NCBI GenBank assembly: GCA_963170055.1
Contig: CAUJGJ010000005.1
Location: forward strand, 657,901 to 721,900
Source of the DNA: Halisarca cf. caerulea
Lineage: Eukaryota > Porifera > Demospongiae > Chondrillida > Halisarcidae
Length of the DNA stretch: 64,000 nucleotides
Direction of reading: 5' to 3'
The notes under the pieces were generated by a model. It made no database searches and had not been told where the DNA came from. It worked only from the letters and a program-made list of their open reading frames with translations. Of the stretch, positions 12,803-21,530 are shown one piece after another. How positions within the stretch are numbered: position 1 is the first letter of the stretch; every line of letters starts with the position of its first letter. The position numbers and the translations under genes are program-made.

Positions 12803-15800
12803 ATTATTATTATTATTTCATAACTTTACAGTCACGCACATGGCGGTGACTGAAGGACAAACACCAAAACAATGGTGAAGCCAGAGGGTGGGGGTGGACA
12901 TAAAATTTAAGGTGAAGTTAAAGTGATATTGTTACGAAGCATACATGTAGACCTGAAAATATAGATACAGGAAAGAAGTAGATTGTAATATAAGTGAGGG
13001 ATGCTGAGAGGGAAATTAAGTAGATTGTGGGAAACCATTGTGAAAAAGAGCTTGGAATAAAAATGTATGCCTGTTAGCCCATAATAATTTACAGCAATAA
13101 AATTTGGTACAAGACAAAAGGAAACAGATTCTGAAATGAAATGTAAAAACGTGGATTAGTGATGGTAAGCACTTACTAGACAACATTTAGAACAAGGGCA
13201 TAGGTAATGAAATGTACATGGCAGATCTGAGCAGAAATTTACAATAAAGTGGTCCCGAAAGGTATTGTGAAGTAATTTCTTTATTGTGATGAATGGTAGT
13301 GATATGTCGATTACTGGTAGAGAATTCCAGAGTTTGACAATGCGGTTGAAGAAGAAGTGCCTTGTGATTGTAGTGCGCCTATAGTTGAATTTGAGCTTAT
13401 TTGAGGTACCAAATCTTGTTGTTGATGTTGAAAAGGTAATAAAATTGAAAATGTTGAAATGTTGAAATTATCCGAGGGGTGCTGTAGACATTTAACTAAG
13501 AAGAGGATATCCTGTAATTCGAGCCAATACATTAGGGGTAGCATTTCCAGTTTAATCAGTCGGTCCTTGTAATTGATGGCCTGTGTATAGTCTGCGGTAA
13601 TGTATTTAGTTGCTCTCCTTTGTACTTTTTCAAGTGTGACAATATCGGATATCAGGTTTGGTCTCCAGAGTTGGGAGCAGTAGGTTAATCGACTTCTTAC
13701 GAGGGTTATGAAGAGATGTTTTCTTAATTGAATAGATGAATGATGAGTGTAAATACTTCTCCTAATAAAATTTAGAGATTTGTAGGCTTGCATACAGATG
13801 GATTTGATGTGACTACTCCATAACAGGTTGCTTGATACCAGAACTCCGAGGTCTCTATGGCAGGACATTAAGGGCAAAGGCTCACCATTTAGGTAGTAAG
13901 AGGGTGCGTCAGTGGACGTTGATAGGGTAAAACGCATACATATACATTTGGATGTGTTAAGGGTCAGATTCCACTTTGTACACCACTGATGCAGGGAATC
14001 GATGTCAGATTGAAGGGATGTGGTGCTGAATTGTGATGCTGCAAAAATTAACTTTGAATCATCCGCAAACAAAAAGTAGTGGAGTAATGAAGACAGCTGG
14101 GAAGATCGTTTATGTAGATTAGAAAGAGGAGAGGGCCGAGGATACTACCCTGTGGGACTCCGGAGATAACTGGAAGTCTGTTTGAGGAAGTATTGTCTAT
14201 AACAGTGTAGTGGTAGCGGTTGCATAAATAATTTTTGAAAAAGAGCCATAGTGGGCCAGTTATACCTAGTTTCCACATTTTGTACAAAAGCTCATGATGG
14301 GGAACTGAGTCGAAAGCTTTCTTGAAGTCGAGATAGATGACGTCTGCTGATCCTTCTTCGATAGAGTTAAAGATTTCAGCATGGGATGATAATAGTTGAG
14401 TTGTGCAAGAACGATTTGAAAGGAACCCAAATTGTTTTTTTGAGATTTTAGGGCGAAGGAAAGGTATGATTTTATTGTAGACTATTGATTCCAGTACCTT
14501 GGATATGATGCATAACAAGGAGATTGGCCGGTAGTTTGTAACATTTGTTTTGTCACCACTTTTGTGAATTGGCACTATTTTGTGGGTTTTCCATTCTTGA
14601 GGTAGGCTGGCAGTTGAGTAAGATTGTTGAAACAGAGAGGTAATGATATGTAACAGAGGATGTAGACACAGTATAAGAAGCTGGGGGCAAATGTTGTCAC
14701 AGCCAGGTGATTTTTTAAGTTTAAATTTTAGATTGGAGAGGGCTTGGTAAACATCACTGGGTTCAATGGAGATGCTGCTAAGTTGGTTGGTAGGTGTTGG
14801 TAGCTCTTGAACAGGTGGGAGGGAGAAGTCGCTGACAGTAAATATTGAGTTGAAGTACTTATTGAAGGCGTCAGCTTTTTCTAATGCTGATGAGAGTGGT
14901 TTGCCGTCTAGGTAGATTACGGGTGGAAGGATGTGGTCGTTGGATAGATAATTTAGGTGTGCGAATATCTTGTGGGGATTTGACTGATGTAGCTTAATGA
15001 AGTTTAGTTCGTATTGATCTTTTGTGGTTTCCATGAGAGTTTGGAGGTCCGATTCATATTTGTTTAGTGCAGCAGTCTTGTGAGGTTTTGGATGTTTCTT
15101 TGCTGATCTGCGCAAGGTGTGTAATTTGTTTAGTTGGTGCTTGATTTGTGGGGTAAACCATTTGGGGCTATTCTTTCTAGTACAAGGTAATGAAGGTATG
15201 AGATTATCATTGACAGACAGAAGAAGTTGCCTCAGATTATCCCACATCTCATTCACATTATGGGTTTGTTGGATGGAAGTTCCATGGCGAAGAATGTACT
15301 CAGCTATTTGAGTTGGGTCTGCTCTTGAGAATAAGGTAATTTTGTGCAAATCTGATGGATTAACATTTTTATGATGCAGAGCAGTTGTGTATGTGATGGT
15401 GATGAGGTAGTGGTCCGATTTGGTGTTGATTGTGGTCGAACTATCAATGTGGATGTTCGCTACTTTGTCTGGGGTGTTTGTTAGCACTACATCCAGAATG
15501 TTACCATGAATGTGGGTTGGCTCACCTATGATTTGTATTAGGTTTAGTCTAAAAGTAAAGTCGCAAAATAAGCTGCTAGGGTAGGATGATGATGTCAAAG
15601 ATGACCAGTCAGTATCAGGCATGTTTAGGTCTCCCAGAACAATAATAGCATGGTCCCTAGAGAGGCCCTCAAGAGTATGTACCAATTCGTGTATAAGAGG
15701 GGTGGTTGCATTTGGGGGGATGTAGAGTCCACAAATGATGAGAGGGTTTTTAAGTAGTAGTTCGATGGCGATTATTTCTAGGGGTTCAGAGGTAGTAGTT

Positions 15801-16225
15801 AATGACATGGCTTTGCTCGGTATGTGATTTGAGACGGCCAGAAGGACTCTACCGCCCTGAGTTAATCTATCTTTTCGCCAAATGGTATAGCCATTTGGTA
15901 GAATTTCATTGTTGTGTATATCTGAGTGCAACCAAGTTTCTGTAATACAAAATATGTCAAAAGAATGGCTGTATATAAGCAACTGAAAATAGGACAATTT
16001 GTTTTTGATACTACGAGCATTCCACAGTGCTAATGATAGAGTGCTTGGTGATGGCATTGTACAATAGTTGGGTCGTGCATATAGTTGCAAAAAATAGCTA
16101 AAATTATCATGTATTATACGTGCTAAAATTTTACGTGGTGTCCATCCTGTACAATACATGCTAAGATTTTATGTTGTGAGGCCCACATATATACACATGT
16201 ATGTGCTAAGATTTTACGTTCTGAT
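12803..16225 (-). mobile_element. CR1/jockey-clade LINE, nearly full length
   Basis: The element includes tandem 5'-UTR monomers (16080-16225, sense strand GTAAAATTTTAGCACGTATA-like), one long ORF (16159-13156) and a 3' (AAT)n tail at about 12803-12820. The 5' monomers reappear at 21297-21480. The right-hand boundary is approximate; no target duplication was identified. Confidence 0.8.
13156..16159 (-). pseudogene. LINE ORF2: AP endonuclease plus reverse transcriptase, two frameshifts
   Basis: The first ATG is at 16159; a second at 16057 (MPSPSTLSLALWNARSIKNK) may be the functional start. The endonuclease part shows WNARSIKNK, ITETWL, VLGDLNMPDTDW and SDHYLI. The reverse transcriptase shows NYRPISLLCIISKVLESIV, YLDFKKAFDSVPH, SGVPQGSILGPLLFLIYIND and FADDSK. 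The frame breaks just before the FADD catalytic motif (about 14085) and again near 13455, after which a typical CR1-type end (RIVKLWNSLP and a terminal Cys/His-rich segment) continues to TAA 13156-13158. The element is therefore recently active in type but inactive here. Confidence 0.9.
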
Positions 16226-16490
16226 CGTTATAGGCAATATTGATCCACACCCGTGTATGTTTGCAGAAAGGAATCAGTAATTTCGCCTGCATACCATAGA
16301 AGATACAAAATTAATGGCCGCCGACTCGTCCTTTTGCTTGCATGTTGTGCAGAGAAGCATTCAGATCGCATCGCGTGCCCAATATTTTTCTAACACGTTA
16401 AAAATAGAACGTATGTTGACGTGGTGCTGGGGGATTAGGTCGCATGACATGGATTTGGCGCCGGCGGCATTCGTGTTTTTGACGAAAATC

Positions 16491-16713
16491 ATGTCTCGTT
16501 TTTCGATATTGGTGTTGATCGCTTTTCCTGTAGCTTTTACCATAGTATTCCAGCGACTCTCTGCATATCAGTCAGATGTTCCTCATCAGAATGCAGATGC
16601 TCGACATTTTCAGCTACAGCAGGCTTTAACTGAACTTCAGTGGAGATTTAGCAAAATAACAAGCCCACTGTACTTTGGAAAGAACTACAACTGCATCCAC
16701 AATGGAATCTCTA
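16491..16713 (+). CDS. Hypothetical first exon with signal anchor
   Basis: An ATG at 16491 starts a hydrophobic N-terminus (MSRFSILVLIAFPVAFTIVF) followed by a polar segment rich in Gln/Leu, ending at a GTGAGG donor after SK. This looks like exon 1 of a type II or secreted protein. No downstream exon was recognised, and the RecQ element begins about 0.7 kb later, so the gene may be broken. The longer upstream frame from 16314 is possible but less protein-like. Confidence 0.35.
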
Positions 16714-17430
16714 AAGTGAGGAAAACTCTCATGATTACAACCAATAACATGCATGTATTTAATAGACAGCAGCGTCCAAATCTTGCAATGACAGTATAGT
16801 CAGAGTAGAAAACAATACATATCGTGGGGGGTGAGGTGGGGGTGACACTATGCATGGGCTAGCTATATTGTGGGGGGTGAGGTGCACCCCTCTCACCCTC
16901 CATTCCAGACCTACTTTATTGAATAATAATTCAGATCATGATCAACTATAATTTTATTCCCATATTAAAAATTACCATGCAATGTATTATTCTATATTGT
17001 AGGTACAACACTGTGTGTGGGCTGCATGCAATGACTCATAATTTATAATTGTGTGTCCTTCTGAATACAAGACTTTGTATCAATAGAAGACAGCGAATCA
17101 ATAGGTATATAAGATACATAATATTATTATTTACTATAACATGCAATTATAATGCTTAAATCACACACTATCATGCAGTTAGATTAAAACCTAGATTATA
17201 AGTATAATACAAATCAAGGTTCCATTTACAGTTAATTGTTGATCCTGCATGCAGGAAAAAACAAATGATTGTGTACCAACATAATAGAAGAAAATCAATT
17301 GTGATTAAAGACCTTCCTACAGATGAAGACAAGTGTGAATTTTGCATATCATTGACATAATATTGCTAAATTTGCAGTGAATGAATGCATTATGTAAACT
17401 GAGTCTTATACAGCATTATTTTCATGCAGA
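16714..17430. other. AT-rich interval, no gene seen
   Basis: Contains a short direct duplication of GTGGGGGGTGAGGTG (about 16825 and 16870) and otherwise AT-rich sequence. It is the left flank of the RecQ/transposase element, but I could not find a convincing terminal repeat here. Confidence 0.6.
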
Positions 17431-17610
17431 TTTTCTGGCACATGCTCAAACATATTTGTACGGGACAACATGAAGACTCTGAACTTCCGTGTAGCAGGTG
17501 AGACAACAGTTGCTGAGCTGAAAGAACACATTGCAGCATCTACTGGAGTATGCGGCTCTGAGCAACGGTTAATTTATGGGGTTAGGTTACTACAAGACAG
17601 TGAGAAATGT
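17431..17610 (+). pseudogene. Ubiquitin-like domain of the composite element
   Basis: The frame reads NIFVRDNMKTLNFRVAGE, TTVAELKEHIAASTGV and EQRLIYGVRLLQDSEK, following the beta-grasp order of ubiquitin (LTGKTLTLEV, IENVKAKI, QQRLIFAGKQLEDG). A TGA at 17611 interrupts it, but the same frame continues with QYNDCNINLYCSLKGG, matching the last ubiquitin strand and a terminal di-glycine. The interruption is therefore a point mutation inside one protein. No start codon other than ATG 17470 (inside the domain) is seen; an acceptor-like TGCAG precedes 17431, so an upstream exon is possible. Confidence 0.6.
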
Positions 17611-17613
17611 TGA

Positions 17614-19173
17614 CAATACAATGATTGCAACATTAATCTGTACTGCAGCTTAAAGGGAGGAAATATCTGTGACATTTGTGGTTCTGAACACCCAAAACTA
17701 TTCTGTGAAATGTGTCAAAAAAACTTATGCTCAGATTGCAGTACACTTGTTCACCGCCACCCACAGCGGCAAAACCACACAATCACGAACTATGACTGTA
17801 GTAGTATCACTACCACAATGGACGATCATGATAATAGCCATGCTTCTGATAGCCAGAGCTCTAGCTCAGATTTTTTGGATAGTCTTTCTCACAATGAGCT
17901 TGAGAACAAATGCCAAGTGGCAGAATTGGCAGACAAATTTGGTCTTACAACCTTTCAAGGGTTCCAAAGAAAAGCGATTACCATGGCACTAAATGGTACA
18001 GATTCACTGATTATTCAGCAAACTGGCAGTGGAAAGAGTCTTTGCTATCAAGTCCCACCAGTATACACGCAGACAAAAGCTGTTATCATATGTCCAATTA
18101 TCAGCCTAATGCAAGACCAACATGCACTGCTCACAGCTAAGGACATACAATGTGTATATCTTGGCAGTGCCCAAACAGACAAATTGTTAGAGAAATCTGT
18201 TTTCAATAGCCAGGATCCACACTGTCTAATCTTTGTAACACCAGAATGGATTTTCAAAGAAGCAAATTTAAATAGGGTTAAGGATGCAGCAACATCAAAA
18301 ATTGTCACACTCATTGCAGTGGATGAAGCACATCTAATATGTGAATGGCAGTCCTTTCATGGAAACTATGGAGATTTAGAAACAATAAAAGAACACTTTT
18401 CAACCACACCAGTCATGTTTCTAACAGCCACGGCAACTCCTAGCATGGCTGAGAAATTGAAATGTTGCCTTCATGACCCTTGCGTTTTAAAAGGTACAAT
18501 AAATCGCCCAAACATAATCCTGGATGTGCAAGAGTTTGACAAAGGTCATGTCTCAAAGGACAATCGAGGTGACTATAGTGGTTTTGCCACCAAGGTATCC
18601 AAAATAATCAGCAAAGACAGTGCAATAGTTTACACTGATTTCATTGCAGACATTGCTCCAATCACACAGGCACTAGCTAAAGTGGGGATTACCTTTGCCC
18701 ACTATCATGGAGAGCTGGATGCTAGAGCCAAGCTTGCATCATATAGGCAGTGGTCCAATGGCGAAGTGCAGGTGATGGTGGCCACCAAAGCATTTGGTAT
18801 GGGTATTAACAGTGGAGATGTGATACATGTCATAAGGAATGGTGTACCGCCTAATATCAATACCTGGATGCAAGAATTGGGTAGAGCTGGTCGGCGAGGG
18901 CAAGCAGCTACAGCAACAATACTGTACAGTGAATCTGATGTTCAAAATGTGCTTGGCTGGCTAAGGGATCACCTTCAGAACAGAGTAATCAGGGATACTA
19001 TACTGGCAGAATTTGACATTAGTTGGAAACTAGTCTACAGTAAGCTTGCAGGAAAGTGCATTCGTAAAACTATGCTTGAATACTACAATGAGGAACTAAC
19101 AGATGCAGCAAAACATTGCTGTGGAGTTTGTGACGGTCAAGGTAATAGGAGCTATGTAATTTTGAGACAATAG
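17614..19173 (+). CDS. B-box zinc finger plus RecQ-family helicase segment
   Basis: The first ATG after the TGA is at 17710, but coding is continuous from 17614. A B-box-like finger reads CDICGSEHPKLFCEMCQKNL then CSDCSTLVHRHPQ. The helicase shows motif 0 (FQGFQRKAITMAL), motif I QTGSGKSLCYQVPP, motif II DEAH in VDEAHLICEWQSFHGNYGDL, motif III FLTATATPS, motif V GMGINSGDVIHVIRNGVPPN and motif VI QELGRAGRRGQ. RecQ zinc-binding cysteines follow (CCGVCDG). RecQ enzymes unwind DNA 3' to 5'. All ATPase motifs look intact, so the helicase domain itself is not visibly damaged. The frame ends at TAG 19171-19173, a shift before the transposase. Confidence 0.85.
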   Translation, partial: QYNDCNINLYCSLKGGNICDICGSEHPKLFCEMCQKNLCSDCSTLVHRHPQRQNHTITNYDCSSITTTMDDHDNSHASDSQSSSSDFLDSLSHNELENKCQVAELADKFGLTTFQGFQRKAITMALNGTDSLIIQQTGSGKSLCYQVPPVYTQTKAVIICPIISLMQDQHALLTAKDIQCVYLGSAQTDKLLEKSVFNSQDPHCLIFVTPEWIFKEANLNRVKDAATSKIVTLIAVDEAHLICEWQSFHGNYGDLETIKEHFSTTPVMFLTATATPSMAEKLKCCLHDPCVLKGTINRPNIILDVQEFDKGHVSKDNRGDYSGFATKVSKIISKDSAIVYTDFIADIAPITQALAKVGITFAHYHGELDARAKLASYRQWSNGEVQVMVATKAFGMGINSGDVIHVIRNGVPPNINTWMQELGRAGRRGQAATATILYSESDVQNVLGWLRDHLQNRVIRDTILAEFDISWKLVYSKLAGKCIRKTMLEYYNEELTDAAKHCCGVCDGQGNRSYVILRQ

Positions 19174-20445
19174 CTGATGAAATTGATGCTAATGATAATA
19201 GTCTTGCCGGAAGCGAGGTAACTGCAAAGGAGTATACACAGCTAGGCCGACCCTACATGAGGGAAGCAGGGATTGTCAAAGGAATAAAATTTGCTCTCTT
19301 ACAGTCACCATTTATGTCCCAAATACTATCTGAAGCCAGCTTTATTGAATGTGATATCACATACTTAGAACACCCTGAGTATAAATATCTGTTTAATGTC
19401 ACAGCATTTGATGAAGAAGCAATGAAATGGGTAATAGTAGGTCGATGCCTCTTGTCAAAAGACAACAGTGATGGGTATAGTATTGGCTTTAGTAAGGTGT
19501 TTAGCATGGCCAGAAGTGATAGTAGTAACTTTGAAGAAGGAAAAACACTAAAAGGTATTGTAATAGACTGGAGTGATGCTGAAGCATGTGGGTTACGAAA
19601 AGCAATAGGAGACACAATAGCCAATAGCCTGTTAAGAGGTTGCCAAGTACATTGGTCTCGATCCTACCAAAGGGTAGCAGACAAGGTGTGTAGAACAGCT
19701 GAAGAGAAGAAAGTATACAACACTGTAGCATCTCGTATACCATGTAGTAAATCAAAAGCATCAGTCCTACTCCACTTTCAGGTGCTGTGTGGGGAAAAAG
19801 CACTGGAGACCCTAAACCTTCATGGAATAGAGCCATTTAATAATAGCCACTGGGGGAAGGCAAAGACATGGGTGGAATGGTGGACCAGGCATTGCCATCT
19901 TCAAATGTTGTGTAAGGAATTCTCTCCATTGGATGATGATGCTTGGTACCAGTGTCCAAAGGACACAAATACTGTAGAGAGAAAGAATAGAGACTCAAAG
20001 ATGACAAACACATCGTCCCTTCGCTCACTGATGACTGCGTTGTACAAAAATGACAAGTCATGTGCATGTCAATACATGGCTGCTCTTCGCAGTGGAAATC
20101 TTACTTATAATCGATGTGATCAAGATGCACGACTAAAATCCGCACAAATCAGAAGAGATCAACGTAAGCGATCTTACCCAAAGGATTCTGAATGCCAACA
20201 TGGTCCCCCTGACAAACAGCAACATTTTACTACAATGGGCAACAACTTACTTTTTAAGGAAGTTGAAGTGAGGTATAGTGATGGGGAATGGTATAAAGGT
20301 AAAAACCAACAAGTGGACTGTTTTCTTTGAAAGTGACGGAGAAACAACGGATTTTGTCTTCCCTGATCCAGATGTAAAAATTCTGGATAGCAATGAATCC
20401 GATCATGATGATGATGATGACTTTCAGTATAGCTCCACTAATTAA
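19174..20445 (+). CDS. Mutator-like (MULE) DDE transposase domain and acidic C-terminus
   Basis: An open frame from the helicase junction (FETIADEIDAND) runs through ATG 19257 to TGA 20328-20330. It has the MULE order of catalytic features: first Asp in ECDITYLEHPEYKYLF, second Asp in GIVIDWSDAEACGL, the C-x2-H pair in GCQVHWSRS and a Glu in NTVERKNR. After the frame change near 20300 the frame continues with KWTVFFESDGETTDFVFPD and an Asp-rich tail to TAA 20443-20445, resembling a small Tudor/chromo-like barrel. The upstream helicase lies one frame away with no intervening start signal, so the two were probably one polyprotein. Confidence 0.75.
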
Positions 20446-21084
20446 AACTCTATATACTCTCTATTAGTATTGTGTTCCATGTAATAAAGCATTAAATCAT
20501 TATGTACTCAACATGCTTAGTTGGCAGTATATAATATCATGCAATTGCAAGCTGTTACTCTGGAAGACTCATAGAACAACATATGCGCAGTAGCCACATC
20601 TTATGAATCAGTATCTGCAATCTTAGACTAGCAAATTTGAATAAAATGTAAAACATTTATCTTTTGATTCAGTCCATATTATGTATTCCAAAGCTACATG
20701 ATTGATTATTAGGCATTATTAGGCATTTACTATATTATATTACAATATCTTATCTGAGACTCAAGCAATGTTATACAGTAATAGGCATTGTTACATTCTT
20801 CTTCTGTATTCAGTTTAATATGATAGCAATAATAATATGTCAAATTTTAGAGCGGATACCACATGCAACACGTCATTGAAAGACAAAATGATAGAGAATC
20901 ATGCTTATACAGACATACCTATATAGCTGATGTCCAGCATTGCAATATAAATAGTGTATCTTATGATAGTTTCTTATGAATTACTTTGACTTTCACTTGA
21001 AGCCTGGCTAGTGTCTTTCCCAACTGACTTCCAGCCGCCATTTTGTCTGTCAGAAATGGATCTGGAACCATGCAATTGCAAGGC
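20446..21084. other. Intergenic, AT-rich; no gene seen
   Basis: Holds the candidate polyadenylation signal at 20483-20488 and a partial direct copy (about 21010-21050, GACTTCCAGCCGCCATTTTG) of the arm of the next fold-back element. Confidence 0.6.
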
Positions 21085-21198
21085 AAGTATAATGGCTTAA
21101 TTGGTAGTCTCATTCCCAGCTCACTTCCGGCCGCCAGAATAAAATGGCGGCCGGAAGTGGGGCTGGGAACGAGACTACTTAATTGGCTGATCATACTT
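21085..21198. mobile_element. Fold-back (hairpin) element
   Basis: Arms of about 52 bp (21085-21136 and 21144-21198) are inverse of each other with a 7-nt loop. The core ACTTCCGGCCGCCA / TGGCGGCCGGAAGT is perfect, and the outer parts carry small indels. There is no coding capacity. Confidence 0.75.
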
Positions 21199-21296
21199 AT
21201 AAGCATAAAGTATATATACATACAGCATGCATATAATACAACCAATGTAAACAGCCATACAATGTATACAAAATCGTAATGCATAATACAGAATAA

Positions 21297-21480
21297 ACAT
21301 GCACAACATAAAATCTTAGCATGTATAATACATGATGGACACAGCATAATATCTTAGCATGTATGATACATGGTGGAAACGTAAAATCTTAGCATGTATG
21401 ATACAGGATGGACACAACATAAAATCTTAGCATGTATGATATATGATAATTTTAGTTATTTTTTGCAACTGTCTAAGTAA
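21297..21480 (+). mobile_element. LINE 5'-UTR monomer fragment
   Basis: Four tandem units of about 37-38 bp (AAAATCTTAGCATGTATGAT core) are followed by GATAATTTTAGTTATTTTTT and GCAACT. The same order occurs on the sense strand of the LINE at 16159-16080. Homology stops near 21490, so this is the 5' end of a second, otherwise missing copy. Confidence 0.75.
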
Positions 21481-21530
21481 CCCAATAGTTAGAGGTAATT
21501 GTCTTGGATCGATGTTGTCAATCATTGTGG

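Follow-up and report, generated by a model that had tools for sequence, protein, structure and literature searches.

Anatomy of the transposon copy

The window analysed here, a 64,000-nucleotide stretch of the genome of the sponge Halisarca cf. caerulea (contig CAUJGJ010000005.1, positions 657,901 to 721,900), contains what is very probably an inactive, internally deleted cut-and-paste DNA transposon, whose full-length relatives encode a single protein extending from a ubiquitin-like domain (UBL) to a transposase. This protein, of about 1300-1430 amino acids (aa), is predicted to comprise, in this order, a UBL with terminal Gly-Gly, a B-box, a RecQ helicase (DEAD, Helicase_C, zinc-binding and RQC parts), a linker, a zinc finger, a MULE-like DDE transposase and a Tudor/chromo-like tail. 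An earlier reading made from the sequence alone (the sequence-only reading) had proposed a transposon-like gene joining UBL, B-box, RecQ and MULE transposase at 17431-20445.

The coding track lies on the forward strand. Its first stop-free stretch, 17398-17613, encodes 71 aa, the second, 17614-19173, 519 aa and the third, 19149-20330, 393 aa; a short tail then leads to a stop at about 20445. As the sequence-only reading had described, it is a single reading track with one stop, at 17611-17613, and two changes of frame, at about 19160 and about 20300. The UBL (17452-17661) ends in LKGG (17650-17661) and is itself interrupted by the stop, ahead of which it matches Pfam ubiquitin with an E-value of 3e-11. 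It is followed by a B-box zinc finger (17662-17787; zf-B_box, E 3.4e-8), a RecQ DEAD/DEAH domain (17962-18444; DEAD, E 5.1e-19) with GSGKS and DEAH in its translation, and a helicase C-terminal domain (18604-18900; Helicase_C, E 8.9e-17), all above the Pfam cut-offs, and by a RecQ zinc-binding region (19042-19134; RecQ_Zn_bind, E 0.01) below it. A sequence search of the PDB gave WRN (7e-52), RECQ1 (9e-49), 1oyw, which we take to be Escherichia coli RecQ (9e-46), and BLM (6e-43) as its best rows; because WRN, RECQ1 and BLM are among these top matches, the window helicase is classified by its sequence as a RecQ. The frame change between RecQ and transposase, at 19159-19162, marks where an internal deletion took out about 1.17 kb, with RQC, the linker and the zinc-finger region of the transposase; the missing stretch is retained in a second copy, on C416 (about L021:4438-5608). 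Beyond the junction, the DDE core occupies 19353-19979, with D1 at 19353-19355, D2 at 19566-19568, CxxH at 19641-19652 and E at 19977-19979 (residues D69, D140, C165xxH168 and E277 of the open reading frame (ORF)). The C-terminal tail (20257-20445) has a short deletion near 20300 relative to C416; it is tentatively named Tudor/chromo-like on the basis of sub-threshold Pfam matches, that of the C416 tail having an E-value of 5.9e-5.

The transposon is larger than the interval first noticed. It spans about 16070-21483 on the forward strand (about 5.4 kb), with GGG...CCC ends. The terminal inverted repeats (TIRs), for which the sequence-only reading had proposed a comparison of copies, were found at 16068-16175 on the forward and 21378-21485 on the reverse strand; each is 108 nt long, and they are 84% complementary. 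The target-site duplicate AATAGTT stands at 16063-16069 and again at 21484-21490, or, with ...ACC taken as the 3' end, as the 8-bp CAATAGTT, and the C416 copy (L021) is flanked on both sides by a duplicate of its own, TAAAATC or the 8-bp CTAAAATC. The C416 copy matches window positions 16071-16389, 16379-19162 and 19159-21483 at about 97%; the homology (16071-21483) ends there on both sides, and the flanks outside differ. The TIRs, the duplications and the second copy with the same ends bear out the transposon nature of the locus. The sequence-only reading had proposed looking for target-site duplications (TSDs) of 8-11 bp, the length typical of MULEs; duplications are present in both copies, and their length is 7-8 bp, depending on which terminal base is taken as the right end. 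The 8-bp reading makes the right end one base shorter and leaves an uneven terminal base on the left. Past GGGT, the two ends differ over the next 12 nt or so but match in the inner part of the TIR, and the window family and a divergent family of the same genome (C89, described below) are alike in this. Subterminal 38-bp tandem repeats (3.9 copies, 21302-21447, forward strand) overlap the 3' TIR.

In the 194 Mb of genome searched (454 contigs), these TIR ends were found in five places: the window, C416, a left end on C369 and right ends on C412 and C404. Coding homologues at least 79% identical are present at four loci, C5 (the window), C416, C369 and C290. Both counts are lower bounds, as were the two TIR searches of the genome.

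Several smaller features lie in or beside the copies. The C416 copy contains an insert of about 0.6 kb (L021:1082-1694) with inverted repeats of its own, likely a nested small transposon. The short inverted repeat ACTTCCAGCCGCCATTTT is found in the 3' part of the window copy, at 21027-21158, and a longer one of 34 nt is located nearby in C416. A splice acceptor-like TTTTCATGCAG was seen by eye at 17419-17429. An ORF at 16281-16796 has no Pfam match. The left end of the transposon adjoins 13311-16168 on the reverse strand, where two overlapping ORFs look, by eye, like the endonuclease and reverse transcriptase of a non-LTR retrotransposon.

One protein in other copies and in database relatives

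The fusion of RecQ to the transposase is real, because the C416 copy has an open frame of 853 aa that spans RecQ, RQC (E 8e-7), the linker and the zinc-finger region and runs into the start of the DDE domain. The UBL and the beginning of the B-box also share one frame in C416, which has breaks of its own in the B-box, the helicase and the DDE region. The four domain types named by the sequence-only reading are parts of one protein, as seen in the 853-aa frame, in the database protein P0004, whose ORF holds the UBL, the B-box and RecQ and enters the transposase, and, whole, in P0044, P0052 and P0062, although none of the copies found in the sponge genome has the protein intact throughout.

Three protein searches returned 5, 39 and 36 matches, amounting to 74 distinct proteins, all of which were kept and compared with P0044 (1430 aa) by BLASTP; segments were counted when 60% covered. 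Helicase, RecQ-Zn/RQC and transposase were found in a single ORF in 17 of the 74, with lengths of up to 1430 aa, and each of these 17 follows the order of P0044 colinearly, with RecQ first. The DDE core is covered in eight of them (P0044, P0045, P0046, P0047, P0049, P0052, P0053 and P0062). The others consist of RecQ-Zn/RQC plus transposase (3), helicase plus RQC (5, including P0004, which also extends into the transposase), transposase only (46) and proteins with no full segment (3). RecQ and transposase parts that always occur apart, the pattern which the sequence-only reading had named as contrary to its proposal, were thus not what the relatives revealed: the parts are joined in 17 of the 74 and in C416. 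The fusion is retained over relatives about 40% identical.

Catalytic motifs are retained as well. In a 22-row alignment (A3), counted over rows with letters at the site and leaving partly gapped rows aside, DEAH is present in 17/17 and GSGKS in 14/16 (P0001 and one partial row differ), while the transposase has D1 in 20/20, D2 in 17/17, CxxH in 16/16 and the E motif in 12/12; D2, C, H and E are also conserved at 90% or more in alignment A1. The full set of RecQ features (DEAD, Helicase_C, RecQ zinc and RQC) was found, with DEAD and Helicase_C over the cut-off in the window. The RQC model is over its cut-off in C416 and P0001 and below it in the others, and the RecQ zinc model is at or over it in P0046 and P0053 and below it in the other proteins shown. 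Among viral contigs, one search gave no pattern match and another gave two, neither of them a relative; bacterial and archaeal contigs yielded three planctomycete loci, 32-33% identical and matched only over query residues 139-572, the helicase part.

Eight of the 74 relatives reach the N-terminus (P0004, P0044, P0050, P0052, P0056, P0059, P0062 and P0068). In all eight, Gly-Gly ends the UBL two or three residues ahead of the first B-box cysteine, the other 14 rows of A3 being gapped there, and LKGG is found in the window and C416 too; the terminal di-glycine noted in the sequence-only reading is therefore a conserved feature of the relatives with letters at the site. Apart from P0004, the UBLs are 19-27% identical to that of C416. 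Pfam ubiquitin matches P0004 (1.8e-7) and, weakly, P0068 (3.5e-4) and P0056 (0.023), with no match in P0044, P0050, P0052, P0059 or P0062. A six-row UBL profile aligns to ubiquitin residues 2-76, including the C-terminus, with single-ubiquitin matches around 1e-8, and it also matches chains of ubiquitin-ribosomal protein fusions in the PDB.

The divergent C89 family has the matching order B-box, RecQ, RQC, zinc finger and DDE, with frame breaks or introns. Its pieces are 24-35% identical to those of C416, and an open 340-aa frame aligns over RQC and the zinc-finger region. The C89 copy has TIRs of 244 bp at 99% and GGG at both ends. Downstream of its transposase, an ORF on the reverse strand (L024:93-755) resembles the C-terminus of Ulp1 (C48) proteases around a DCG motif, with a Pfam E-value of 0.15, below the cut-off. 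A RecQ query against the genome gave 90 scored matches, of which 79 are only 24-49% identical and many are interrupted by stops; it seems that RecQ-like sequences have been amplified in this genome, possibly carried by other mobile elements.

The type of transposase and the decay of the copies

In the active MULE transposase Muta1 of Aedes aegypti, D214, D283, H307 and E419 are each important by mutation, according to the available text (PMC5225508). The MULE triad and CxxH are both found in the window, where the spacing is 71/137 and H lies at D2+28, the Muta1 values being 69/136 and +24. Among 40 members searched at E<=1, Pfam Transposase_mut matched 7 (best 0.0019) and MULE 5 (best 0.0099), below the cut-offs where bits are shown, and Transposase_mut on the window itself scored 0.088, also below. 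Profile comparison by hhalign used MULE domains taken from 25 loci of the genome, many of which are near-identical. Here 40 sequences gave an E-value of 1.8e-4 and a probability of 49%, with D1, D2 and CxxH in register, and 63 sequences gave 0.0014 and 17%; the 63-sequence profile scored 33.9, whereas none of 60 column shuffles exceeded 21.0. With some reserve, the MULE assignment of the sequence-only reading is supported by the spacing of the motifs and by the profile comparison, the Pfam scores lying below cut-off where bits are shown.

The P superfamily, which has a TNP-like RNase H domain and was compared by hhalign through 7 loci of this genome, scored 16.2, within the shuffles, and was rejected. 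KDZ, the Zisupton type, scored 16.6, likewise within the shuffles, but its 5 loci are broken and align poorly, and KDZ PF18758 was not among the 25 listed of the 27 Pfam families matched at E<=1 by the 40 members; a KDZ identity is disfavoured, on weak material. A PDB search with the transposase alignment gave three matches, the best of which, ribosomal L23 at E 0.63, is a chance one. TSDs are given as 4-10 bp for IS256/MuDR (PMC10045372), 8 or 9 bp for Muta1 (PMC5225508) and 8 bp for Zisupton (PMC12730594) in the available texts; since Zisupton also has 8 bp, TSD length alone is not decisive. The transposase is best called MULE-like, from its DDE/CxxH spacing and profile match in a comparison that took in MULE, P and KDZ, and it possibly forms a separate lineage of its own.

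None of the four coding loci is intact, each having stops, frame changes, deletions or inserts. Comparison of the window with the other copies gave dN/dS values for B-box-RecQ of 1.02 (C369, 505 codons) and 1.19 (C290, 416 codons), and 9 nonsynonymous and 0 synonymous changes over 506 codons against C416. For the UBL the values were 0.65 (C369) and 1.59 (C290), with zero changes against C416, and for DDE 0.70 (C416) and 0.29 (C369, 59 codons with one change of each kind). There is no clear constraint between the copies, and in this genome the family seems to be dead.

Proposed function and comparison with known systems

A number of observations weigh against the interpretation of the window copy as the remnant of a transposon encoding one long protein. 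The sequence-only reading had expected intact relatives elsewhere in the genome; none was present among the copies found by searches that give lower bounds, and no activity is known for the family. No ATG was seen by eye in frame ahead of the UBL in the window (17398-17470), and the splice acceptor-like sequence at 17419-17429 suggests a first exon upstream that is missing from this account. The folds of the zinc finger, DDE domain and tail are assigned by sequence, and the profile support for MULE is modest, given the two probabilities above and the near-identical MULE loci. Transposase-only entries make up 46 of the 74 relatives; 36 of them came from a search with candidates limited to 216-688 aa, and because the other 10 came from one admitting 494-1573 aa, there may be free-standing transposases among the relatives. 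For the C89 copy, no target duplicate was seen by eye at the ends read, and its 340-aa frame is assigned to RQC and zinc finger by alignment, since Pfam matches nothing there.

Transposases usually rely on host factors for the unwinding and repair of cut ends, and a lineage with RecQ in the same polypeptide raises the question of what a helicase contributes to a cut-and-paste transposase. In the proposed mechanism, the Cys/His region before DDE would be a zinc finger binding the TIRs, and the DDE domain would cut and join the ends by MULE-like cut-and-paste, while the fused RecQ, brought by the transposase, could unwind or remodel branched or gapped DNA at excised or inserted ends. In the sequence-only reading, the helicase may assist excision or repair at the ends, and the UBL and B-box may point to contact with host ubiquitin/SUMO or TRIM-like machinery. 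With less confidence, the UBL may be a fusion partner cut after Gly-Gly by host deubiquitinases, as in ubiquitin-ribosomal protein fusions, or may draw in ubiquitin-binding repair proteins; the B-box could aid multimerisation and the tail could read chromatin. Cleavage or docking of the UBL is a hypothesis whose sole direct support is the conserved Gly-Gly. That this motif is kept while the rest of the UBL diverges prompts the question of whether transposons exploit ubiquitin-fusion processing.

It is rather doubtful, though a reading worth stating, that the element encodes a ubiquitin-like modifier of its own, with the UBL cut free behind Gly-Gly and then conjugated to proteins of the host or of the transposon. 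The weakly matched Ulp1-like ORF beside the C89 transposase would fit this. If it were true, the transposon would steer host repair or silencing by ubiquitin-type signalling while its RecQ-transposase half moves DNA.

Two explanations do without a transposon-encoded fusion protein or without a mobile element in the present. Taken alone, the window copy, whose junctions carry a stop and frame changes, could be a host UBL-B-box-RecQ gene caught or interrupted by an unrelated transposon, the fusion being an accident of the locus; the same order recurs, however, in C416, in C89 and in the 17 single-ORF database proteins, and this accidental juxtaposition is rejected as extremely improbable. A domesticated host gene of transposon origin would agree with the few loci of the family in the genome (four with coding parts, a lower bound), but the copies bear stops, deletions and inserts and their dN/dS is without clear constraint, and there is hardly any probability left for this explanation, which is likewise rejected.

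Membership of an already named helicase-encoding lineage, AcademH or KolobokH, is a more serious alternative, yet an improbable one. Kolobok elements have the target duplication TTAA, which differs from the AATAGTT and TAAAATC found here. In the available text, KolobokH is a DNA transposon with a RecQ helicase downstream of its DDE transposase and is known from fungi only (PMC9587614). It shares with the present family a RecQ joined to a DDE transposase of a C/DxxH-bearing superfamily but differs in order, RecQ being upstream in C416 and in 17/17 fusions, and the word ubiquitin does not occur in the available text of that paper. AcademH, a helicase-encoding DDE transposon with TSDs of 9-10 bp (PMC10045372; PMC10799480, citing), likewise pairs a helicase with a DDE transposase and, by the title of Kojima 2020, occurs in animals and fungi. 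On the features compared, it differs from the present family: its TSDs are longer than the 7-8 bp found here, and Academ is not among the C/DxxH superfamilies listed in the available part of PMC10045372.

The interpretation preferred here, a decayed cut-and-paste transposon with a single UBL-to-transposase protein, thus places the family beside several known systems. Fungal subtelomeric RecQ repeats contain repeated RecQ genes that are described in the available text without a transposase (PMC4522978). MULE/MuDR elements share the DDE spacing, the CxxH between D2 and E, the TIRs and a zinc finger before DDE (a putative one here), but as described they have no UBL, B-box or RecQ upstream and no Tudor-like tail, all of which are fused in the present family; the words helicase, RecQ and ubiquitin are absent from the main text of a survey covering 1631 MULEs (PMC6446971). 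Ubiquitin-ribosomal protein fusions (eS31/S27a and eL40) have the same arrangement, a Gly-Gly-ended UBL placed immediately before another domain within a single ORF; they are immobile host genes, unlike the transposon, whose protein would be cleaved only putatively. The sequence-only reading had not known the combination of domains from any named DNA transposon family. Because of KolobokH and AcademH, the pairing of helicase and transposase is already known and helicase-encoding DDE transposons have names; a protein in which a UBL or B-box is joined to RecQ and transposase, however, was not recognised among the open-licence PMC titles and abstracts listed, though it may be described in Repbase only. 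What appears to be new, judged by the papers searched, is the Gly-Gly-ended UBL, the B-box and the RecQ upstream of a MULE-like transposase, rather than the RecQ/transposase pairing itself.

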